A stretch of DNA of 39,548 bases. Source: Thermodesulfobacteriota bacterium. GTDB taxonomy: Bacteria > Desulfobacterota > Desulfobulbia > Desulfobulbales > JBFMBH01. This document shows positions 2,301 through 21,095 of this stretch, one piece after another (the first letter of the stretch is position 1; every line of letters begins with the position of its first letter). The DNA lies in assembly GCA_040755095.1 (NCBI GenBank), contig JBFMBH010000022.1:1-39548 (forward strand). The letters run 5' to 3'. The notes beneath the pieces are model-generated. The model was not told the origin of the DNA, searched no databases, and saw nothing but the letters and a program-made list of their open reading frames with translations. The translations under genes were made by a program, and so were the position numbers.

Positions 2301-3344
<1,044 letters not shown>

Positions 3345-3360: not shown

Positions 3361-3396
3361 GCCGGCCCGACCGCCGTTGTGGGCGGTCGGGCCGGC
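3361..3396 (+). terminator. Strong GC-rich hairpin after gap (terminator or attenuator)
   Basis: A perfect 15-bp stem (3361-3375 with 3382-3396) and a GTTGTG loop, starting 17 bases after the gap stop and ending 12 bases before the next ATG. The following bases (CTTCATTCTG) are only weakly T-rich. It could terminate part of the gap transcripts, stabilise the gap 3' end, or uncouple gap from the downstream gene. Confidence 0.55.
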
Positions 3397-3408: not shown

Positions 3409-6400
3409 ATGCGACCCGAGCCTGCTGCCCCTGAGATCGACTCCGACGCCCTCCGGGCCAACCTTCTCGAGACCGCCGTCACCGGGGTGACCATCGACCC
3501 GGAGCTCCTGGTGCTCCGGGAGATCGTCGCCCCCTTCCGCGGCATCCAGAAGGCCCTGGACCACCTGCTCTACGAGCTGGCGCACCCGTTCCGCAACTGG
3601 CGGCTCCTCATGCCGGAGCTGCGGGCCTTTGCCCTCAAACAGCTGGGTCACTACCTGGCCGACCCCCGGGGCGCCGCGGCCTGCGACCGCTTCGTGTCGT
3701 TGTTCTTCCAGGCCGTGGAGGAGACCGCCAAGAGCGAATCCCTCCAGGGCCAGGCGGTGGAGTCCTTCCTGGCCTACCTGGAGAAGCTTCTTTCCGAGCT
3801 GCCGGCCAGCCAGCTCACCGCCTACGCCGGCCCCCTCAACCGCGCCTTTCTGAGCCTGGCCGCCTGGCCGCCCGGGGTGCTGCGCTTCGTGGTCCAGGGC
3901 CACCATCCGGTGAAACGCCTGGGCAGCCGGCTGGTGGCCGCGGGCAGCCAGGCCCCCGGCTTCGCTCTCGCGCCCCTGGCCGCCCTCATCACCCGGGTCT
4001 TGCGGGAAACCTACGGCTATTGGCTGTCCGAGGAGGACCCCCTGCCCTGGTTCCTGGCCGAGTGCGGCGAGCTGTGCTCCGGCTGGGAGGCCGGCCGGCT
4101 TTTTGCCGCCATCTCCCACCAGGAGCTCCGTGGCCATCTGGCACGGGTCGAGACCCTGGCCGCCGAGCCAGACGCCTCCCGCCGTCTGACCGCCCTCCTG
4201 GAGCTGCCCTTCCACATGGACCTGGTGCGGCTCTACAAGGAGGTGCCGGACCGGCTGACGGTGCCGGAGGCCAGCGACCGCTTTGCCGAGAACCGCAAGC
4301 TCCTCTTTCTGTTCCGGATCATGGAGACCCGGGGGCTCGCCCTCATCCACGAGGAGACCCTGCGGGAGATCAACCGCTCCCTGGTCCAGCTCATCCGCCA
4401 ACAGAGCTTCGACGACATCAAGGCCTTCCTGATCCGCACCTTCGAGCTCCTGAAGGCTAATGTCCGGAACTACCCCCACACCTCGCTCCAGTGCATCCAG
4501 GTCCTGGGCACCGAGGTCTTCCGCCGGGGCAACAGCCGGCTGGTGGAGGCCTTCCTGTGGGAGGCGGCCCGCTTCGGCTTCCAGTACCCCAACGTCTCCG
4601 GCGTCGACCGGGACTGGCAGCCCCTGGCCAACCCGGCCCATCTGGCCAACATCCGGGTCTGGCTCAGCCTCATCATGCAGGAGCCCAAATGGTGCTCCAC
4701 CGTGCTCTCCGCCCTGGTCATCAACCTGCGCCTGGCCGGCACCTGCATCAAGGATACCGATCTCTTCCAGCGGGACGTCACCCGGCTCCTCAACCATCCC
4801 ATCGAGCCGGTCTACAACCTGGTGAAGCAGTTCGCCAAGCAGCTGCCGGTGTTCTTCAACGAAATCGGCGCCGAGGGCCTGTTGCGGGATGTGTCCACCG
4901 AGATCGATGAGATCCACCAGCGCAAGGACATCCTCATCCACTTCCTGCGCAAGCAGAGCCACGTGGAAAGCTCGAATCTCATCGCCGACTTCGTGCGGGC
5001 CATCTTCCGCTTCTGGCAGACCCGGGACCGGCAGGTGCTGGCACCGTATCTGCCGTTGGAGGTGCTGGCCGGGGTGGAGCCGTCCGGCCCCTACGTGGAC
5101 GGGGTCGCCGCCCTGACCGAGCGGGTCTTTTCCCTGCCCCATATCAGCGGCGTGGACGACCTCCTGACCTGGGACGACCACCGTCTGGAGGCCTTTCTGG
5201 CCGGCCAGACCGATCTGCCGGTCAACGAGGTCCGGCGCTTCCGGCTTTTGCTGCGGATGTTCAAGCTCCTCAACCAGAAGTACAACCTGGGCTTCCAGGA
5301 GCTGCGCTACCAGCTCCAGCAGGCGGCGGCCGGCGACTTCCCCGAGATGCAGGAGCTTCTGGCCGATCTCGAGATCTGCGACACCTTCACCTGCCTGGAG
5401 GCCCTCCTGGAGCGGCTGGAGCGCCTCAAAGAGATCATCCTTGCGCCGCAGCATTTCGAGGCCACGGAGGACATCTACCACAAGCGCCACATCGCGGCCG
5501 ACATCCCCTCGGTATACGGCCGTTACCGGGAGCGCAAGTTCGATGCCCTGGGGCTCACCTTCCGGCTGGAGAACCTGGCCAACGTCTACCTCGAACGGCT
5601 GCCAGCCACGGTCAATTTGTCTTTCATTACCCGGGCCACCTTCAGCCGGATCATCACCTGCATCAAGATCTACTTCCGGAGCTTGCGCATCGACGGCATC
5701 ACGAGCCGTCGTCTGGAGACCCAGCTGTCGCTCCTGGAGAACTCCCTGGGCATCAAGCGCTTTTCCTACACCCAGTATCTGGACATCTTCCGGGGCCTGT
5801 CGGAAGGGGTGAAGGATGTCATCTACGCCTACTACACCAATATCCACCGCAACAACCTGTCCATCATCGTGCCGCAGCTCTCCGCCGACACCCTGCTGCC
5901 CAAGCTGCACGGCCTGTGGGCCGACGACGATCCGGCCGGCAATTTGCACCGGCTGTCCGAGTTCTTCCTCCGGGACCTCATTGCCGGCACCTTCGGTCTC
6001 CAGCATCTGGACAACTTCATCACCCGCATCTACCAGACCCTGGAGAGCCAGAAGGAGGTCTTGGACGAGCGCATGCTCGATCTGCTCATGACCTATGACC
6101 CGGAGAAGGCCATCAGCCACCTCCACCACAAGAACCCCCGCACCGACGACCTCATCCACCTCGGCAACAAGGGCTTCAACCTGTCGATCCTGGCCGACGC
6201 CGGCAAGCCGGTGCCCCCGGGCTTCATCATCACCACCGAGGTCTTCCGCTGCCGGCCGGTGATCGGCGAGTTCTTCCAGGCCCGGGATGAGCTGATGGGT
6301 CAGATCCGCCACGGGATCAGCGAGCTGGAGCGGGCGACCGGCCGGACCTACGGCGACCCGGAAAACCCTCTGCTGCTCTCGGTGCGCTCCGGTGCCGCCA

Positions 6401-7638
6401 TCTCCATGCCCGGCATGATGGGCACCATCCATTTCGTGGGCACCAACCAGGACCTGGTGGAGGAGTTCGCCGAGGCGTCCGGGGAGGCCTTCTTCGCCTG
6501 GGACAACTACCGCCGCTTCCTGCAGTCCTGGGCCATGACCCACGGCCTGGGCCGGGACACCTTCCAGGCCCTCATGGACGATGCCAAGACCCGGCACCGG
6601 GTGCGGCTGAAAAGGGAGTTCTCGCCGGCCCAGATGCGGGAGCTGGCCCTGGAGTACCAGAAGGCGGTGCGGGCCATCGGCCTCGGCATCCCGGACGACC
6701 CCTGGCTGCAGCTGGTAGCCGCCATCGACATGGTGCTCAATTCCTGGAGCGCCAAGAAGACCGTGGAGTACCGCCATCTCATGGACGTCTCCGATGCCTG
6801 GGGCACGGCGGTGATCATCCAGGCGATGGTCTACGGCAACCGGACCCCGGACTCCGGGGCCGGGGTGCTGTTCACCGCCCATCCCTACCGCAAGGTCAGC
6901 CGGGTCGCCCTGTGGGGGGACTACGCCGCCGGTGACCACGGGGAGGACATCGTCTCGGGCCTGGTGGCCACTGATCCCATCTCCATTGAGCAGACCGAGA
7001 TCGACGGCCGGGACCCGGCCCAGTCCCTGGAGGCCCGCTTCCCGGAGATCTACCAGGCCCTGCTGTCGCTCAGCCGGGAGCTGGTCTACGAGAAGCGCTG
7101 GGGCGCCCAGGAGATCGAGTTCACCTTCGAGGGGCCGAGCGCGGACGACCTGTTCATCCTCCAGACCCGGGACATGATCACCATCAAGAAGGAGAGCTTC
7201 GATGTCTTCGTGGAGACGCCGGCCTTGGCCGGCAGCCTTCTGGGCAAAGGCCTCGGGGTGAGCGGCGGCGCGCTGTCCGGCCGGGCGGTCTTTTCCGCCG
7301 CCAACATCCAGGCCCTCCGGCGCCAGGATGCGAGCACCCCCCTCATCCTCATCCGCAAGGATACCGTGCCCGAGGACGTCAAGGTCATCGCCATGGCGGA
7401 CGGCCTGCTCACCGCCCGGGGCGGCCAGACCTCCCACGCCTCGGTGGTGGCCTCCCGCCTGGACAAGACCTGCGTCGTCGGGGTCAACTCCCTCAAGGTC
7501 ATGGAGAGCCTCAACCTGTGCGAGATCAACGGCCACACCGTGCGCTTCGGCGACGAGGTGAGCATCGACGGCCGCCGGGGTCTCTTCCTGCGCGGCTGCC
7601 ACGAGGTGAAAAAGGAGGTCCACATCGTGCCGGTCTAG
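3409..7638 (+). CDS. PPDK-like dikinase: long N-terminal region, ATP-grasp and phosphohistidine domains, no PEP/pyruvate barrel
   Basis: A 1409-residue protein. Residues 1-~900 are a large helical region of unknown function. From about 910 there is a PPDK-type nucleotide-binding domain: KGFNLSILADAGKPVPPGF (~921 on), SVRSGAAISMPGMMGT, then DSGAGVLFT and HGEDIVSGL, as in pyruvate phosphate dikinase. A swivelling phosphohistidine domain ends the protein, with GGQTSHASVV and catalytic-type His1343. The PEP/pyruvate-binding TIM barrel that normally follows is absent. ATP-dependent autophosphorylation is therefore plausible, but the acceptor is not evident; the N-terminal region may supply it. The ATG at 3409 was chosen because longer readings run through the preceding hairpin and the gap 3' end; no strong Shine-Dalgarno is visible. 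It lies between two GAPDH genes, suggesting a role in triose/PEP metabolism. Confidence 0.85.
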   Translation: MRPEPAAPEIDSDALRANLLETAVTGVTIDPELLVLREIVAPFRGIQKALDHLLYELAHPFRNWRLLMPELRAFALKQLGHYLADPRGAAACDRFVSLFFQAVEETAKSESLQGQAVESFLAYLEKLLSELPASQLTAYAGPLNRAFLSLAAWPPGVLRFVVQGHHPVKRLGSRLVAAGSQAPGFALAPLAALITRVLRETYGYWLSEEDPLPWFLAECGELCSGWEAGRLFAAISHQELRGHLARVETLAAEPDASRRLTALLELPFHMDLVRLYKEVPDRLTVPEASDRFAENRKLLFLFRIMETRGLALIHEETLREINRSLVQLIRQQSFDDIKAFLIRTFELLKANVRNYPHTSLQCIQVLGTEVFRRGNSRLVEAFLWEAARFGFQYPNVSGVDRDWQPLANPAHLANIRVWLSLIMQEPKWCSTVLSALVINLRLAGTCIKDTDLFQRDVTRLLNHPIEPVYNLVKQFAKQLPVFFNEIGAEGLLRDVSTEIDEIHQRKDILIHFLRKQSHVESSNLIADFVRAIFRFWQTRDRQVLAPYLPLEVLAGVEPSGPYVDGVAALTERVFSLPHISGVDDLLTWDDHRLEAFLAGQTDLPVNEVRRFRLLLRMFKLLNQKYNLGFQELRYQLQQAAAGDFPEMQELLADLEICDTFTCLEALLERLERLKEIILAPQHFEATEDIYHKRHIAADIPSVYGRYRERKFDALGLTFRLENLANVYLERLPATVNLSFITRATFSRIITCIKIYFRSLRIDGITSRRLETQLSLLENSLGIKRFSYTQYLDIFRGLSEGVKDVIYAYYTNIHRNNLSIIVPQLSADTLLPKLHGLWADDDPAGNLHRLSEFFLRDLIAGTFGLQHLDNFITRIYQTLESQKEVLDERMLDLLMTYDPEKAISHLHHKNPRTDDLIHLGNKGFNLSILADAGKPVPPGFIITTEVFRCRPVIGEFFQARDELMGQIRHGISELERATGRTYGDPENPLLLSVRSGAAISMPGMMGTIHFVGTNQDLVEEFAEASGEAFFAWDNYRRFLQSWAMTHGLGRDTFQALMDDAKTRHRVRLKREFSPAQMRELALEYQKAVRAIGLGIPDDPWLQLVAAIDMVLNSWSAKKTVEYRHLMDVSDAWGTAVIIQAMVYGNRTPDSGAGVLFTAHPYRKVSRVALWGDYAAGDHGEDIVSGLVATDPISIEQTEIDGRDPAQSLEARFPEIYQALLSLSRELVYEKRWGAQEIEFTFEGPSADDLFILQTRDMITIKKESFDVFVETPALAGSLLGKGLGVSGGALSGRAVFSAANIQALRRQDASTPLILIRKDTVPEDVKVIAMADGLLTARGGQTSHASVVASRLDKTCVVGVNSLKVMESLNLCEINGHTVRFGDEVSIDGRRGLFLRGCHEVKKEVHIVPV

Positions 7639-7722: not shown

Positions 7723-7747
7723 TCCGGGTTCTCATCGATGACCTCAT

Positions 7748-7768
7748 GCTGGCGGCCGGACCGCCAGC
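7748..7768 (+). promoter_or_regulatory. Leader hairpin of the second GAPDH gene
   Basis: Perfect inverted repeat GCTGGCGG-N5-CCGCCAGC in the presumed 5' untranslated leader, 43 bases before the start codon. It does not cover the GGAGG ribosome binding site (about 7796-7800). It may act in mRNA stability; no known riboswitch is recognised. Confidence 0.35.
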
Positions 7769-7811
7769 CGATCCTGCACCCCCTTCCATCCTTTCTGGAG
7801 GTCCGCACGCG

Positions 7812-9029
7812 ATGAAGCTCGGCATCAACGGCCTGGGGCGAATCGGCAAGCTCACGGTCTGGCACCACGTCTCCCGCAAGCATTTCTCCGGCCTCACCAT
7901 CAACATCGGCCGTGCCGCCGGCCAGGGCCTGGAGCACGTGGCCAGCTACCTCGAAAAGGACAGCACTTACGGGCGGCTGGGCCAGTATCTCCACGGGCAC
8001 CGCGCCGGCCGGGTCATCGAGGGCCTGGACGAGGCCAAGGGCTTCATGCTGGTGGACGGGGTGCCGGTGACCATCCTGCGGGAATCCCGCAACCCGGCCG
8101 GCATTGCGTGGAAGGATCAGGGCACCCGCCTGGTGGTGGACACCACCGGCGCCTTCACCGACCCCACCGGGGCGGCCGAGGACCCCAAGGGTAGCCTGCG
8201 GGGCCACCTGACGGCGGGCGCCGAAAAGGTCATCCTGTCGGCGCCGTTCAAGATCAAGGCCCAGGGCATGGCCATGCCCGATGACGCCGTGACCACGGTC
8301 ATGGGCATCAACTTCGACGACTACCAGCCGGCTCGCCATCACCTGGTCTCGGCCGCCTCCTGCACCACCACCTGCCTGTCTTACATGGTGAAGCCGCTCC
8401 TGGAGCATTTCGGTGCCGACCGGGTCCTGAGCGCCTCCATGGTCACGGTCCATGCCGCCACCGGCTCCCAGCAGGTCCTGGACCGGCTGCCCAATGCCGG
8501 CGCCAAGGACCTGCGCAAGAACCGCAGCATCCTCAACAACATCATCCTCACCACCACTGGCGCTGCCAAGGCCCTGGGCCTGGTGATCCCCGAGATGAAG
8601 AACATCGGCTTCATCGCCGAGTCGGTGCGCATCCCCACCAGCACCGGCTCCCTGATTGTCCTGGTGATCAACCTCCAGGACGAGGAGGCAAGCCCGGTCA
8701 AGCGCAACCTGATCAACGGCATCTACCAGGCCTACGCGGCCCGCAGCCGCTACCTGGCATACAGCGAGGAGCAAAACGTCTCTGGCGACATCATCGGCAC
8801 CCCGGAGGCGGCCACCATCATCGAGGGCACCGAGACCCATACCCGCACCGCCCACATCCGGGTGAGCCTCAAGAACATCCCCGGCTGCTCCATCAGCGAA
8901 GGCTCGGCGGCCTTTCTCAACATCCCGGTCACCCAGGCCGTGATCTACGGCTGGTATGACAACGAGCTGGGCAGCTACTCCAACATGCTGGGGGATCTGA
9001 CCGTGGCCGTTGCCGACAAGATGATCTGA
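7812..9029 (+). CDS. Divergent glyceraldehyde-3-phosphate dehydrogenase paralogue
   Basis: A GAPDH-family protein of 405 residues, about 70 longer than the canonical copy at 2340. It keeps the Rossmann GINGLGRIG, catalytic-type Cys184 in AASCTTTCL, His214 in TVHAATGS and the C-terminal WYDNELGSYSN. It differs at key places: SCTTNC becomes SCTTTC, and the acidic residue after strand 2 that binds the NAD ribose is replaced (TINIGR instead of AINDL). Insertions lie at about 75-115 and after His214. Altered cofactor or substrate preference is plausible, for example NADP use or another phosphorylated aldehyde, but this is inference. The ATG at 7812 follows GGAGG. The gene has its own promoter and precedes rimI, pgk and tpiA. 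Confidence 0.85.
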   Translation: MKLGINGLGRIGKLTVWHHVSRKHFSGLTINIGRAAGQGLEHVASYLEKDSTYGRLGQYLHGHRAGRVIEGLDEAKGFMLVDGVPVTILRESRNPAGIAWKDQGTRLVVDTTGAFTDPTGAAEDPKGSLRGHLTAGAEKVILSAPFKIKAQGMAMPDDAVTTVMGINFDDYQPARHHLVSAASCTTTCLSYMVKPLLEHFGADRVLSASMVTVHAATGSQQVLDRLPNAGAKDLRKNRSILNNIILTTTGAAKALGLVIPEMKNIGFIAESVRIPTSTGSLIVLVINLQDEEASPVKRNLINGIYQAYAARSRYLAYSEEQNVSGDIIGTPEAATIIEGTETHTRTAHIRVSLKNIPGCSISEGSAAFLNIPVTQAVIYGWYDNELGSYSNMLGDLTVAVADKMI

Positions 9030-9543: not shown

Positions 9544-10734
9544 ATGAAGAACATCCGCGACATCGATATCAGGGGTAAGAAGGTCCTTATCCGGGTCGAC
9601 TTCAACGTGCCCATGGATGATCAGGGCAACATCACCGACGACACCCGGATCCGCAGCGTCTTGCCCACCATCAACCACCTCCTGGACGAGCATGCCCGGG
9701 TGATCATCTGCTCGCACATGGGGCGGCCCAAGGGCCAGCGGCTGGCCACCCTCTCCCTCGAGCCGGTGGCCAAGCGCCTCGGCCGTCTGCTGGCCAAGGA
9801 GGTGCCCCTGGCCCCGGACTGCATCGGGCCGGAGGTGGAGGCGCTGGTGGCCAAAATGCAGCCCGGCGACCTCCTGCTGCTGGAAAACCTGCGCTTCCAC
9901 GCCGAGGAGCAGGCCAACGACGACGCCTTTTCCCGGCAGCTGGCCAGTCTGGCGGATGTCTATGTCAATGATGCCTTTGCCGTCGCCCACCGGGCCCACG
10001 CCTCGGTGGTCGGGGTGACCCGGCACGTGCCGGTGGCGGCTGCCGGCTTCCTGCTGCAGCGGGAGATGGACTATTTCCACCGCTCGGTGAGCGACCCCAT
10101 GCGGCCTTTGGTGGCCATCATCGGTGGCGCCAAGGTCTCCAGCAAGCTGGGGGCCCTGACCAACCTGCTGGACAAGGTGGACAAGATGATCGTCGGCGGC
10201 GCCATGGCCAACACCTTCCTGAAGAGCCAGGGCATCGACGTCGGCGCCTCCAAGGTGGAAAACGATCTCCTGGACACCGCTCGCCAGCTGGTGGCCAAGG
10301 CCCGGGAGCGGGGGGTGCACCTCTACCTGCCCGTGGACTGCATCGTCGCCGACCGCTTCGATCCCAAGGCGGAAAGCAAGCGGGTACCGGTGCAGGAGGT
10401 GCCACCGGACTGGATGATCCTGGATATCGGCCCGGCCACCACCATCCTGTTCAGCGAGGCCCTGGAGAACGCCAAGACCATCATCTGGAACGGCCCCATG
10501 GGCGCCTTCGAGATGGATGCCTTCTCCCGGGGCACCATGGCCATGGTGCGCAACGTCGCCAACTCTTACGCCCTGACCATCGTCGGCGGCGGCGACACCG
10601 ATGTCGCCGTGCACCGGGCCGGCGAATCCGCCAACATCTCGTACATCTCCACCGGCGGCGGCGCCTTCCTGATGCTCATGGAGGGCAAAACCCTGCCCGG
10701 GGTGGCTGCCCTGGACGCGCTCCAGGACCGCTGA
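9544..10734 (+). CDS. pgk: Phosphoglycerate kinase
   Basis: Cytosolic monomeric enzyme of 396 residues that transfers phosphate between 1,3-bisphosphoglycerate and ADP to form 3-phosphoglycerate and ATP. Seen in sequence: the N-terminal signature [14 protein letters not shown], substrate-binding SHMGRPKG, the hinge [12 protein letters not shown], the nucleotide-domain motif NGPMGAFE and GGGDTDVAV near the C-terminus. Length is standard for bacterial PGK. AAGGA sits five bases before the ATG. It follows rimI by 9 bases and precedes tpiA by 32 bases, giving the common pgk-tpiA-secG order. It uses the product of the GAPDH genes upstream. Confidence 0.98.
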
Positions 10735-10766: not shown

Positions 10767-11525
<759 letters not shown>

Positions 11526-12046: not shown

Positions 12047-12132
12047 GCCGAAGTGGTGGAATTGGTAGACACGCTATCTTGAGGGGGTAGTGGGCGCCGC
12101 CCGTGCGAGTTCGAGCCTCGCCTTCGGCACCA
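12047..12132 (+). tRNA. tRNA-Leu (anticodon GAG)
   Basis: An 86-nt class II tRNA. The acceptor GCCGAAG (12047-12053) pairs with CTTCGGC (12122-12128). Discriminator A12129 and encoded CCA (12130-12132) follow. The anticodon stem CTATC/GGTAG encloses the loop TTGAGGG with anticodon GAG at 12081-12083, reading CUC and CUU. A long variable arm and the T-arm GCGAG-TTCGAGC-CTCGC are present. It lies 9 bases after the secG stop, so it is probably processed from the secG transcript. Confidence 0.97.
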
Positions 12133-12188: not shown

Positions 12189-12911
12189 ATGCACAAAGCG
12201 ATCATCGCCCTGGCCACCAGAAACGAAGGCAAGATCCGGGAGCTGACCGAGCTGGTGGCCGGCTTTCCCGTGGAGATCCGCAGCCTGCGGGACTTCGGCC
12301 CCATCCCCGAAGCCAAGGAAGACGGCGCCACCTTCGATGACAATGCGTACCAGAAGGCCCTGTTCACCGCCAAGGTCCTGGGCATCCCGGCCATGGCCGA
12401 CGACTCCGGCCTGGTGGTGCCAGCCCTGGACGGCGCGCCCGGGGTCTACTCGGCCCGCTACGCCGGCGAGCAGGCCAGTGATGCCGACAACATCCGGAAG
12501 CTGCTCGCGGCCATGGAGGGCAAAAGCGACCGCCGGGCCGCCTTCGAGTGCGTCGTCTCCATCGCCGTGCCCAGCGGCCCGGCCCTGACCTACGAAGGCC
12601 GTTGCGAAGGGGAGATCACCCTGGCCCCCCGGGGGAAAGACGGCTTCGGCTACGATCCGGTCTTTTTCTATCCGCCGTTGGGCAAGACCTTTGCCGAGCT
12701 GACCCTGGAGGAGAAGAACGCGGTCAGCCACCGGGGCCAGGCCTTGGCCCAGGTACGCCAGGAGCTGGCCAAGATCCTCACCTGGCTCAGCCAGCGCCTC
12801 CGGGAGGTCAAGCCCCCCAAGCCCGACCACGCCGAGTTCGCGGACAACGACTGGTCGCAGCAGGAGTGGCGGCCGCCGTGCGCAAAGAAGGGAGGAGCCA
12901 CCACGGTGTGA
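12189..12911 (+). CDS. rdgB: RdgB/HAM1 non-canonical purine NTP pyrophosphatase
   Basis: Hydrolyses ITP, dITP and XTP to monophosphates, keeping deaminated purines out of DNA and RNA. At 240 residues, the catalytic core matches the family: ATRNEGKIREL at the N-terminus, MADDSGLVVPALDGAPGVYS with the metal-binding acidic pair, GFGYDPVF substrate loop and SHRGQAL. The last ~40 residues (from LTWLSQRL) form a charged extension beyond the usual 195-205-residue protein. GGAGGA (12175-12180) precedes the ATG. The promoter must lie downstream of, or overlap, the terminator at 12145-12174, or transcription reads through it. Confidence 0.93.
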   Translation: MHKAIIALATRNEGKIRELTELVAGFPVEIRSLRDFGPIPEAKEDGATFDDNAYQKALFTAKVLGIPAMADDSGLVVPALDGAPGVYSARYAGEQASDADNIRKLLAAMEGKSDRRAAFECVVSIAVPSGPALTYEGRCEGEITLAPRGKDGFGYDPVFFYPPLGKTFAELTLEEKNAVSHRGQALAQVRQELAKILTWLSQRLREVKPPKPDHAEFADNDWSQQEWRPPCAKKGGATTV

Positions 12912-13060
12912 ACCGGCGGGCTCCGTTTGGGCCCCGCGTGCGGATCGACTCCATCACAAGAAGGGATTCGTGCTTTCGGCGAAACGCACCCATCGAGCCA
13001 CTGTTTCCGGACACTCCGCCGATCTCGATCCCGGACAGATCGGAGGGAGGCAGGCCATCG

Positions 13061-13687
13061 ATGCTGACCCCTACTCAACTTCAGGCACTCTTGTCCGATC
13101 TTGAATCGGACCGCATTGAGCGCCTGGTGTCGACCAGGGACACCGACAAGTTCGCGCAGGCGGTCTGCGCCTTTGCCAATGACCTTCCCGGCCACGGCCT
13201 GCCCGGGTGTCTCCTTGTTGGCGTCAACGACCAGGGGGTACCGGCGGGCATCGAGGTGACCGATCAGCTCCTGCAAAACCTGGCCGCTCTCCGCTCGGAC
13301 GGCAATATTCAGCCCTTGCCCGTTCTGACCGTGACCAGGGAGTCGCTGCCATCCGGGGATGTGGCGGTGGTGGTGGTCCAGCCTTCGGACCTGCCGCCGG
13401 TCCGCTTCAAGGGGCAGATCTGGATCCGAGTCGGTCCCCGCAAGGCCATCGCCAGCGAGCAGGAAGAGCGCCTGCTCATCGAGCGCCGGGTTGCCCGGGC
13501 CCGCACCTTCGATGCTCAGCCCTGCACCGAGGCCACCTTCGCTGATCTCAACGAGGAGCGGTTCCTGCTCGGCTACCGGAAGGCGCTGCGGGACAATGGC
13601 AACCCGGCCGCTGACTTTCAGCCGGACAAGGACTGGTTTTCGGTGCGTATCCACGGGAAGACCACACCCCGCACACTGCAACCATGA
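13061..13687 (+). CDS. AlbA_2-type protein, internally deleted remnant
   Basis: Encodes 208 residues. Residues 1 to about 170 match an AlbA_2 (Schlafen-type putative DNA-binding) domain: FAQAVCAFANDLPGHG, LLVGVNDQGVPAGIEVTD, VVVQPSDLPPVRFKGQIWI and VGPRKAIASEQEERLLIERR. Intact relatives that I know are around 450-500 residues with an ATPase-like C-terminal half. Here the chain jumps after about residue 180 to GNPAADFQPDKDWFSVRIH, which looks like the family's extreme C-terminus, then ends in unrelated sequence. A large in-frame deletion is inferred. GGAGGGAGG lies 10 bases before the ATG, so it may still be translated. Lower-GC codon choices than its neighbours suggest acquired DNA. Confidence 0.6.
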   Translation: MLTPTQLQALLSDLESDRIERLVSTRDTDKFAQAVCAFANDLPGHGLPGCLLVGVNDQGVPAGIEVTDQLLQNLAALRSDGNIQPLPVLTVTRESLPSGDVAVVVVQPSDLPPVRFKGQIWIRVGPRKAIASEQEERLLIERRVARARTFDAQPCTEATFADLNEERFLLGYRKALRDNGNPAADFQPDKDWFSVRIHGKTTPRTLQP

Positions 13688-13852: not shown

Positions 13853-14884
13853 TCAGCCAACCGCCGCTACGGCCAACTCGTCCTTGCCCTCCCGGGCCAG
13901 GAGCTCCTGGACGGCGGTCATGGGCCTCTGGCCTTCGTAGAGGACGCGGTAGACCTGCTCGGTGATGGGCATCTCGACGCGGTGGCGGGCGGCCAGCTGG
14001 TAGATGGAGCGGGTGGTGCGCACGCCCTCCGCCACCATCTGCATGCCGGCGAGGATCTGGGCCAAACCCTTGCCCTGGCCCAGCGCCAGGCCCACCTGCC
14101 GGTTGCGGGACAGGTCGCCGGTGCAGGTCAGGACCAGGTCGCCCAGGCCCCCCAGGCCGGAGAAGGTGAGGGGATTGGCGCCCATGGCCAGGCCCAGGCG
14201 GATGATCTCGGCCAGACCCCGGGTGATGAGGGCGGCCCGGGTGTTGGTGCCGAAGCCCAGGCCGTCGGCAATGCCCGCGGCGATGGCCACCACGTTCTTC
14301 ACCGCCCCACCCAGCTCCAGGCCAATGAGATCGGTGGAGGTGTAGACCCGAAAACGGTCGGTGTGGAAAAGCCGCTGCCAGGCCCGGGCGATGTCCAGGC
14401 TGGCGCCGGCCACGGTGACGGCAGTAGGCTGGCCGGCCGCCACCTCCCGGGCGAAGCTCGGCCCGGCCAGAACGGCGATTCTCCCGGCCAGGGGTCCGGG
14501 CAGGACCTGGGACATGACCTGGGACATGGTGCACAGGGTGTCGTTCTCGACCCCTTTCACGGCACTGACCAGGAGTGCGGACGGATCCAGGAACGGGGCC
14601 AAGGCCGCCAGCTGCGGCCGGAAGCCATGGGAGGGCACCACCATGACCACCCCGCAGGCGCCGGCCACTGCCTGGGTCAGGTCACTGGTGACGAAGAGGT
14701 TGCCGGGCAGCGGCGCGCCGGGCAGGTAATCGCGGTTCTCGCGGTCCCGGTCGATGGCCTGGGCCAAGGCCGGTCGCCTGGCCCAGAGCCGGACCGCGGC
14801 GCCCTTGTCCGCCAGCAGCTTGGCCAGGGCCGTGCCCCAGCTGCCGGCGCCGATCACCGCCAGGGTCTGGTGGTCAGGCTTCAT
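13853..14884 (-). CDS. gpsA: Glycerol-3-phosphate dehydrogenase [NAD(P)+]
   Basis: Reduces dihydroxyacetone phosphate to sn-glycerol 3-phosphate, the phospholipid backbone precursor. It has 343 residues. Rossmann motif VIGAGSWGTALA near residue 12 is followed by LWARRP, VPSHGFR, SAVKGVE, AGPSFAREVA and the C-terminal-domain signature GLGGLGDLVLTCTGDLSRNR; the lysine in GGAVKNVVAIAAG is catalytic. The start at 14884 was chosen because it gives [14 protein letters not shown]; longer readings run far into gyrA. Its first 11 bases overlap the gyrA end, so translation is likely coupled. Confidence 0.97.
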   Translation of the reverse strand: MKPDHQTLAVIGAGSWGTALAKLLADKGAAVRLWARRPALAQAIDRDRENRDYLPGAPLPGNLFVTSDLTQAVAGACGVVMVVPSHGFRPQLAALAPFLDPSALLVSAVKGVENDTLCTMSQVMSQVLPGPLAGRIAVLAGPSFAREVAAGQPTAVTVAGASLDIARAWQRLFHTDRFRVYTSTDLIGLELGGAVKNVVAIAAGIADGLGFGTNTRAALITRGLAEIIRLGLAMGANPLTFSGLGGLGDLVLTCTGDLSRNRQVGLALGQGKGLAQILAGMQMVAEGVRTTRSIYQLAARHRVEMPITEQVYRVLYEGQRPMTAVQELLAREGKDELAVAAVG

Positions 14885-17390
14885 CACCCTCGCTGACCGG
14901 GTCCCCGGACCCTTCCTCGGCCTCGCCAGCCTCGTCGGCCACAAACCGCTCCGCCACCCGGTCCATGCCCACCACCTTCTCGTCGGCCGCCAGGTTGATG
15001 AGGCGCACCCCCTGGGTGTTGCGGCCGATGACGCGCAGCTCGTCCATGCCCATGCGGATGATCTTGCCGGAGTCGGTGACCAGCATCACCTGATCGTCGT
15101 CGGACACCGACAAGGCGCCCACCACCTGGCCGTTGCGCTCGTTGACCCGGATGGTGATGATGCCCCGGCCGCCCCGGCGCTGCAGGCGGTACTCCTCGGT
15201 GGAGGAGCGCTTGCCGTAGCCCTTTTCGGTCACGGTCAAGACCGACGTCTCGCCGGTGAAGACCACCACCCCCACCACCGCGTCATCCTCCGCCAGATCG
15301 ATGCCTTTGACGCCGGTGGCCACCCGACCCATGGAGCGGATGTCATCCTCCCGGAAGCGGATGGACATGCCGGAACGGGCGATGAGCAGGATGTGATCCC
15401 CGGCCTGGGTGAGGGCTGCGGAGATGATCTCGTCGTCGGGCCGGATGCGAAGAGCGATGATCCCCCGGCGGATGGGGTTGGCGTAGGCCGCCAGCTCGGT
15501 CTTCTTCACCACCCCTTTGCGGGTCACCATGAGGATCGACGGCTCCTGGTCCGGCTCGGCCACAAAGCTCTTCACCCGCAGGATCGCCGCCACCTTCTCC
15601 CCCTCGACCAGGTCGAGGAGGTTCACCATGGCCTTGCCCCGGGCGGTGCGGCCGGCCTGGGGGATCTCGTAGACCCGGCGCCAGAACACCTTGCCCAGGT
15701 TGGTGAAAAAGAGCAGGGTGTCGTGGGTGGAGGCGAAGTAGAGATCCCGGACATAGTCCTCCTCCCGGGTGCCCATGCCCAGGAGGCCCTTGCCACCCCG
15801 GCGCTGGGAGCGGTAGAGGCTCACTGGATTGCGCTTGATGTAGCCGGAGTTGGAGACAGTGACCACCACATCCTCGGGCATGATGAGGTCCTCGGGCAGC
15901 ACCTCGTCCACGACCTCCAGGATCTCCGTCCGGCGGGGGTCGCCGTACTCGTTGCGGATCGCCTCGCACTCCTGCCGGACGATGGTCATCACCAGGGCGT
16001 CACTGGCCAGAATCTCCTGGAAGCGGGCGATCTGGGCCAGGACCTCCCGGAGCTCTTCCAGGATCTTGTCCCGCTCCAGGGCGGTCAGGCGCTGCAGCCG
16101 CATCTCCAGGATGGCCTGGGCCTGGATGGCGGAAAGGGCAAAACTTTCCATGAGACCGGCCTTCGCCTCGGCCGGGCTGGCGGAAGCCCGGATCAGGGCC
16201 ACCACTGCATCCAGGTTGTCGATGGCGATCTTGAGGCCCGCCAGAAGATGGGCCCGCTCCTCGGCCCGGGCCAGGTCGTAGGCGGTGCGGCGGTAGACCA
16301 CCGTCTTGCGGTGGCCGATGAACTGCTCCAGGATCTGCTTGAGATTGAGGATCTCCGGCCGGTTGTTGACCAGACACAGGAAGATGATGCCGAAGCTCCG
16401 CTCCAGAGGCGTATGGGCGAAGAGCTGGTTCACCACCACGTCGGCGATCTCGTCCTTCTTGAGGTCGAGGACGATCCGGGTCCCTTCCCGGTCCGACTCG
16501 TCCCGTACCTCGGCAATGGACTCGATCTTCTTCTCCTTCACCAGGAGGGCGATCCGCTCCACCAGCTTGGCCTTGTTCTGCTGGAAGGGGATCTCGGTGA
16601 AGACGATGCTCTCCCTGCCCGCCGGACCCTTCTTCTCCACATGGTGGCGGGAGCGGATGGTGACGGTGCCGCGGCCGGTCTCGTAGGCCTCCCGGATGCC
16701 GGCCCGGCCGCAGATCATGGCACCGGTGGGGAAGTCCGGACCGGTGATGATCTCCATGAGCTGGGCCACGGTGTGGGTCGGCTCGTCGATCAGGGCGATG
16801 ATCCCGCTCATCACCTCGGTGAGGTTGTGGGGCGGGATGTTGGTGGCCATGCCGACCGCGATGCCGGCCGAGCCGTTGAGGAGCAGGTTGGGCACCCGGG
16901 ACGGGAAGACCAGGGGCTCCACCAGGCTGTTGTCGTAGTTGGGGCCCCAGTCCACCGTCTCCTTGTCCAGATCGGCGATGATCTCGGTGTTGAGCCGGGT
17001 CATGCGCACCTCGGTGTAGCGCATGGCCGCCGGTGCGTCGCCATCCGTGGAGCCGAAGTTGCCCTGGCCGTCCACCAGGGGATAGCGCATGGAGAAGTCC
17101 TGGGCCAGGCGGACGATGGTGTCGTAGACCGCGGCGTCGCCATGGGGATGGTACTTGCCGATGACGTCGCCCACCACCCGGGCAGACTTGAGATAGGGCC
17201 GGTTGTGGAAGTTGCCCAGCTCGCGCATGGCGAACAGGGAGCGCCGGTGCACCGGCTTCAAGCCATCCCGGACATCGGGCAGGGCCCGGCCGACGATGAC
17301 GCTCATGGCATACTCCAGATAGGATTTCTGGAGCTCGCGATGGATGGCGATGGAGCCAGGCTCCGGCAGATGGGTCTCGTTCATGGGCAT
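14874..17390 (-). CDS. gyrA: DNA gyrase subunit A
   Basis: Breakage-reunion subunit of the gyrase heterotetramer, which introduces negative supercoils using ATP bound by GyrB. About 838 residues. The catalytic tyrosine lies in MRYTEVRM (E. coli Tyr122 position). The C-terminal half carries the beta-pinwheel with a GyrA-box-type QRRGGKG and later repeats (QRRGGRG), and the end is acidic. In the quinolone-resistance region the chain reads [10 protein letters not shown]: Ala replaces the Ser83 of E. coli while Asp87 is kept. A TTG at 17396 and an ATG at 17384 are alternative starts; ribosome binding sites are weak. It follows gyrB by 100 bases and overlaps gpsA. Confidence 0.97.
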
Positions 17391-17490
17391 GGTCAACAGA
17401 CTCTTGGCTCGGCAGCCCCTTGGGCTTGCGGCCTGAATGAAGAAGCGGCGGCGACTTGTGGGGGGTTACGATACGACCGGCGCCGAGAGA

Positions 17491-21095
<3,605 letters not shown>

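Follow-up and report, generated by a model that had tools for sequence, protein, structure and literature searches.

Background

The closest described relatives of the protein considered here are the PPDK-type dikinases. In PPDK itself (TIGR01828; structure 1kbl), the ATP-grasp and phosphohistidine domains are accompanied by a C-terminal phosphoenolpyruvate (PEP)/pyruvate barrel. Mycobacterial VadK (Rv1127c; about 490 aa) keeps the PPDK ATP-grasp and His domains, has lost the barrel, has no extra domain and is linked to metabolic enzymes, its partners being those of the methylcitrate cycle (PMC13400623). Rifampin phosphotransferase (RPH) and other small-molecule dikinases, including HpeHI, have a non-barrel, partly helical acceptor domain served by a swivelling His domain, in the order ATP-grasp - acceptor - His or as two subunits (PMC4844700, PMC12167813). 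Here we analyzed a stretch of DNA from a Thermodesulfobacteriota bacterium (Desulfobulbales, JBFMBH01; assembly GCA_040755095.1, contig JBFMBH010000022.1, positions 1-39,548, hereafter "the window"), which carries a gene for a PPDK-type protein, referred to as PPDKX, between two genes for glyceraldehyde-3-phosphate dehydrogenase (GAPDH).

PPDKX shares with PPDK the ATP-grasp and phosphohistidine domains (about 32-36% identity) and the same catalytic residues, but it has no C-terminal barrel and carries a helical N-terminal domain of 905 residues. As in VadK, the barrel is missing and a metabolic enzyme is associated, whereas the 905 additional residues, with their conserved blocks, have no counterpart in the mycobacterial protein. 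Unlike the RPH-type enzymes, PPDKX places its candidate acceptor domain ahead of the ATP-grasp and His domains, and the acceptor domains of the RPH type are not detectably related to the N-terminal domain of PPDKX; a Foldseek comparison of RPH with PPDKX matched over only about 460 columns with an rmsd of about 12 and did not identify a RIF-binding-type acceptor domain. No paper on PPDKX was found among open-licence papers, and the protein is a so far undescribed variant within the dikinase superfamily.

Domain architecture of PPDKX

Translation of positions 3409-7638 yields one uninterrupted reading frame of 1409 aa, with no obvious ribosome-binding site before its ATG. The gene and its parts are as follows:

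3409..7638, forward strand: PPDKX, 1409 aa; helical N-terminal domain, PPDK-type ATP-grasp domain and phosphohistidine domain
3409..6123, forward strand: N-terminal helical domain, residues 1-905, without known family; first ~300 residues variable
4615..5016, forward strand: conserved block 1, residues 403-536, with D449-T-D, E489, R493, D500-E501, R514-K515, H518 and E520
5467..5595, forward strand: conserved block 2, residues 687-729; a beta hairpin, the loop KRHIAxDIPS, then YGRYxExKFDAL
6157..7173, forward strand: PPDK-type ATP-grasp domain, residues 917-1255
7210..7635, forward strand: phosphohistidine (PEP-utilizer) swivel domain, residues 1268-1409, with H1343 at the position of PPDK H455

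The catalytic module described in the preliminary description was confirmed. Pfam gave two matches only, PPDK_N (residues 962-1196, E 1.5e-23) and PEP-utilizers (1312-1391, E 3e-16), and among the NCBIfam models PPDK (TIGR01828) scored 356 bits as compared to 71 bits for PEP synthase. Solved PPDKs aligned with residues 918-1400 (phmmer), the match stopping at the end of the PPDK His domain, before the barrel, and the module superimposed on the PPDK structure 1kbl (E 1e-30, rmsd 3.4; Foldseek). The barrel is indeed missing, as PF02896 had no match in PPDKX and no PEP/pyruvate TIM barrel was present in the predicted model, and the chain ends 66 residues after H1343, which lies within TSHASVV and is invariant among 60 sequences. 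The established PPDK sites K22, R92, E323, Q335, R337 and H455, mapped by motif, correspond to K921, R993, E1237, Q1252, R1254 and H1343 of PPDKX, while D321 of PPDK is replaced by glutamate. As the nucleotide and histidine residues are kept, ATP-dependent charging of H1343 is predicted to be functional.

The N-terminal domain represents a new family without a Pfam model. Residues 1-905 had no match in Pfam, even at E=10, and a 60-sequence profile had no significant match among PDB sequences. The AlphaFold model is nearly all helix (mean pLDDT 86, pTM 0.74), in line with the helical N-terminus first proposed, and a fold search with this model gave no real match, the best hits being importin-like helical solenoids with TM of about 0.15-0.18. 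Neither Pfam, the PDB profile nor fold comparison thus placed a known PEP- or pyruvate-binding fold in residues 1-900. An hhalign comparison of the domain with the barrel-less PEP-synthase paralogues of the same genome was negative. In this genome, two PEP-synthase-like dikinases are encoded by adjacent genes on one contig (L003:202-2793 and L004:226-2733, both on the reverse strand), and their products combine an ATP-grasp and a His domain with a C-terminal domain without known identity at the barrel position; a further PEP-synthase-like protein (L002) is cut by a contig end.

Conservation within the N-terminal domain is uneven. The first 300 residues are variable. Across the domain, about 47 polar residues are at least 98% conserved among the 60 sequences, with most invariant positions falling in residues 401-550 and 651-750. 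Two loops, 484-488 (NEIGA) in block 1 and 692-702 (KRHIAxDIPSx) in the beta hairpin of block 2, are among the most conserved stretches and yet have pLDDT values below 50. Because they combine high conservation with low pLDDT in an otherwise good model, we read these loops as putative mobile, ligand-binding loops, and liken them to those parts of the RPH acceptor domain that lack order without substrate (PMC4844700). Conservation and the flexible invariant loops suggest that the N-terminal domain may substitute for the barrel as acceptor.

Distribution and integrity of PPDKX

Genome surveys covered three lineages, i.e., Desulfobacterota (an evenly drawn sample of 148 genomes), the class Magnetococcia and Nitrospirota. 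Full-length PPDKX was found in 38 of the 148 Desulfobacterota genomes, nearly always as an open frame of ~1400 aa, in 45 of 48 Magnetococcia genomes and, at E <= 1e-100, in 22 of 198 Nitrospirota genomes. A scan of genome contigs confirmed at least 443 relatives, 80 of which were retained, chiefly from Desulfobulbales, Thermodesulfobacteria and Magnetococcales. No plasmid homologues were found.

This distribution bears on whether PPDKX could be what is left of a damaged or split PPDK, with a barrel provided in trans or persisting in longer relatives, as the PPDK-like catalytic module might suggest. Since full-length relatives are widespread as ~1400-aa frames, conserved in three lineages, PPDKX does not represent a truncated PPDK, and no longer form occurred among the relatives examined. 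A separate barrel protein that could complement PPDKX, as envisaged in the preliminary description, was sought in the home genome and not found: its only two PEP-utilizer barrels lie within complete multidomain proteins, i.e., PEP synthase and a protein of 761 aa that itself includes a His domain. We therefore regard a damaged or split PPDK as refuted and extremely improbable. In one Desulfobacterota genome (G065:C1:682944-687060), PPDKX is present as two adjacent frames with a break near residue 600, which represents either a genuine split gene or a frameshift; its congeners are intact.

Association of PPDKX with a divergent GAPDH

The gene immediately downstream of PPDKX encodes a divergent GAPDH, GAP2:

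7812..9029, forward strand: GAP2, divergent GAPDH, 405 aa, from an ATG behind GGAGGT (longest open reading frame 7746-9029)

The true start of GAP2 is probably at 7812, judging from this upstream motif. As compared to the type I GAPDH family (TIGR01534), GAP2 retains the catalytic Cys and His and the phosphate-site residues, with the motifs SCTT(T)C, TVHA, TTTGAA and the phosphate-site arginine, but it falls below the NCBIfam cutoff (318.8 vs 367.2 bits), carries several conserved insertions and shows NIGR (N-x-GR) where the NAD-binding motif NDLT is expected. Its identity to GAP1, the ordinary type I enzyme encoded upstream of PPDKX, is 32-34%. The best PDB matches of GAP2 include coenzyme-specificity mutants of the Geobacillus enzyme; these matches would fit the use of NADP without proving it.

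Among the 148 Desulfobacterota genomes, PPDKX and GAP2 were both present in 37 and both absent from 109, so that genomes with either gene had both in 37 of 39 cases (GAP2 was found in 38 genomes overall). The two exceptions, a lone GAP2 and a lone PPDKX, occurred in genomes that are 62% and 76% complete, respectively. Among the 198 Nitrospirota genomes, PPDKX (E <= 1e-100) and GAP2 coincided fully, in 22 genomes. Fisher's test for the Desulfobacterota gave 1e-32, a value that ignores shared ancestry and serves as a guide only; the stronger argument is the repetition of the pattern across separate phyla together with the cases in which the genes are unlinked. GAP2 was present in all eight further PPDKX genomes that were checked, with the genes mostly unlinked, and in five Desulfobulbales GAP2 adjoins the gene for phosphoglycerate kinase (PGK) and PPDKX lies elsewhere. 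Where the locus is inverted (L034, L035), GAP2 still adjoins PPDKX.

The partnership between PPDKX and GAP2 is thus almost strict in two phyla, and we consider it probable that the two proteins are functionally paired. Such a pairing would point to a so far undescribed transfer of phosphate within lower glycolysis or gluconeogenesis. The preliminary description had taken the flanking GAPDH genes as a hint of a triose- or PEP-linked reaction or of a regulatory kinase; for the downstream gene this hint is strongly reinforced by the co-occurrence, and the role of PPDKX may be metabolic or regulatory. A general link to the AMP and pyrophosphate released by sulfate activation was considered and dropped, as aprA was enriched among PPDKX genomes and not obligate (28 of 38).

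A second subfamily in Nitrospirota

Nitrospirota loci L159-L165 encode a second subfamily with the same architecture (1456-1493 aa; 23-27% identity to PPDKX) and without GAP2. These proteins retain the whole dikinase module and most N-terminal motifs, i.e., D449, R493, D500, RKQ.H (514-518), KRHI..PS (692-701) and E708.KF. At 23-27% identity, their retention is not simply a matter of recent inheritance. That the motifs persist together with the whole dikinase module argues that they serve a chemistry common to both subfamilies. The second subfamily twice adjoins a glutamate synthase-type neighbour, confirmed by domain in L161 only. In L161, the dikinase gene overlaps the end of the gene for the glutamate synthase large subunit by 8 bases, and L163 has two long frames laid out as in L161.

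Proposed reaction and alternative roles

We are somewhat inclined to regard PPDKX as a dikinase that derives from PPDK and carries a new acceptor domain, and lean to a similar degree towards the view that the acceptor is a metabolite binding to the N-terminal domain. ATP would pyrophosphorylate His1343 with release of AMP, after which pyrophosphate would be lost to phosphate, as in PPDK, or phosphate would be lost to water. The phosphohistidine domain would then swing towards the N-terminal domain, to a site formed by blocks 403-536 and 687-729, where the mobile cationic loops would bind an anionic acceptor. This acceptor would be something that GAP2 needs or makes, and, as PPDKX has a single obligate partner, a GAPDH with its catalytic residues kept, the likeliest choice would be the carboxyl group on which GAP2 works.

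The leading and simplest candidate is the pair 3-phosphoglycerate/1,3-bisphosphoglycerate, although we hold this particular assignment only tentatively and consider it rather doubtful. PPDKX would then be a phosphoglycerate dikinase (3-phosphoglycerate + ATP + phosphate <-> 1,3-bisphosphoglycerate + AMP + pyrophosphate), supplying 1,3-bisphosphoglycerate and passing it on to a dedicated NADP-type GAPDH, or using it, and GAP2 would carry out an NADP(H)-type reduction. PPDKs run in both directions (PMC5371819), and the proposed reaction could proceed either way; in reverse, 1,3-bisphosphoglycerate, AMP and pyrophosphate would make ATP. The step would run beside that of PGK and differ from it in energy cost, in the way that PEP synthase relates to pyruvate kinase.

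Several observations weigh against this proposal. PGK is encoded in essentially all PPDKX genomes, so that a second route to 1,3-bisphosphoglycerate is not needed for pathway completeness; a replacement of PGK by PPDKX was rejected on the same grounds. Retention of the N-terminal motifs where GAP2 is absent means that the core chemistry may not concern 3-phosphoglycerate. Tree co-divergence with PPDKX did not separate GAP2 from GAP1 and was uninformative. That GAP2 prefers NADP is a reading of its sequence motif only, and the two conserved blocks are merely presumed to come together in the fold or to point towards the His domain.

The main rival is a regulatory role like that of VadK, in which PPDKX would autophosphorylate at His1343 and modify or bind GAP2 (and GAP1), tuning triose-phosphate flux, with the helical N-terminus as a docking platform comparable to the HPr-binding domain of PTS enzyme I. 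VadK shows that a PPDK without a barrel can phosphorylate its own histidine and bind enzymes of metabolism (PMC13400623); solenoid-like helical folds are common among docking platforms, GAP2 is an obligate protein partner, and the different neighbours of the second subfamily would suit a kinase that changes its clients. However, VadK lacks an N-terminal extension, the many invariant charged residues in mobile loops fit a ligand site better, and most motifs survive in the subfamily without GAP2, where a surface for docking GAP2 should have been lost. We view regulation as possible and not particularly likely.

It is also conceivable, and in our estimation unlikely, that PPDKX acts on another sugar acid or aldehyde (e.g. 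glycerate, erythronate or an acid not yet named), with GAP2 using the product of that reaction instead of glyceraldehyde 3-phosphate. Changes of substrate have occurred repeatedly in the RPH family (PMC4844700), HpeHI phosphorylates aromatic ketones (PMC12167813), and the low identity of GAP2 to GAP1 and its conserved insertions would agree with such a change; on the other hand, GAP2 keeps the full set of GAPDH motifs listed above and adjoins PGK and the gene for triosephosphate isomerase (TPI).

Lower glycolysis is regarded as a solved, nearly universal pathway. PPDKX, an ATP-dependent phosphotransferase of about 1400 residues, is spread over hundreds of genomes in at least three lineages and occurs almost only together with a special GAPDH. 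This implies that lower glycolysis there includes an enzyme step, or a layer of control, which current annotation masks under "PPDK-like". If the phosphoglycerate dikinase proposal were true, several anaerobic, sulfur-cycling and magnetotactic lineages would have the PGK/GAPDH step in a second version that differs in its energetics; with 3-phosphoglycerate as acceptor, gluconeogenesis in autotrophic sulfur bacteria would have altered energetics and a clean biochemical test would become possible.

Organization of the locus

The remaining features of the gene cluster are:

2340..3344, forward strand: GAP1, ordinary type I GAPDH, 334 aa
3361..3396, forward strand: hairpin in the gap between GAP1 and PPDKX, perfect 15-bp GC stem, -39.6 kcal/mol, z -5.2
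9544..10734, forward strand: phosphoglycerate kinase (PGK)
10767..11525, forward strand: triosephosphate isomerase (TPI)

The order GAP1-PPDKX-GAP2-PGK-TPI recurs among relatives. The hairpin at 3361-3396 is terminator-like, without a clear U run, and was rejected as a conserved regulatory element, as its sequence is not kept. Other loci show varied terminator-like hairpins, so that GAP1 may often form a unit separate from PPDKX.

Downstream in the window, two overlapping long frames (14754-17534 and 17437-19902; 926 and 821 aa) had no Pfam match, and overlapping long frames on the opposite strand make their coding strand uncertain. A protein with a Schlafen AlbA_2 domain is encoded at 12548-13687, just downstream of a tRNA-Leu gene (12047-12132). 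Upstream of the gene cluster, positions 117-1271 encode a multiheme cytochrome-like protein with doubled CXXCH motifs, which is followed at 1360-2184 by a weak TPR protein that recurs beside GAP1 in several relatives.

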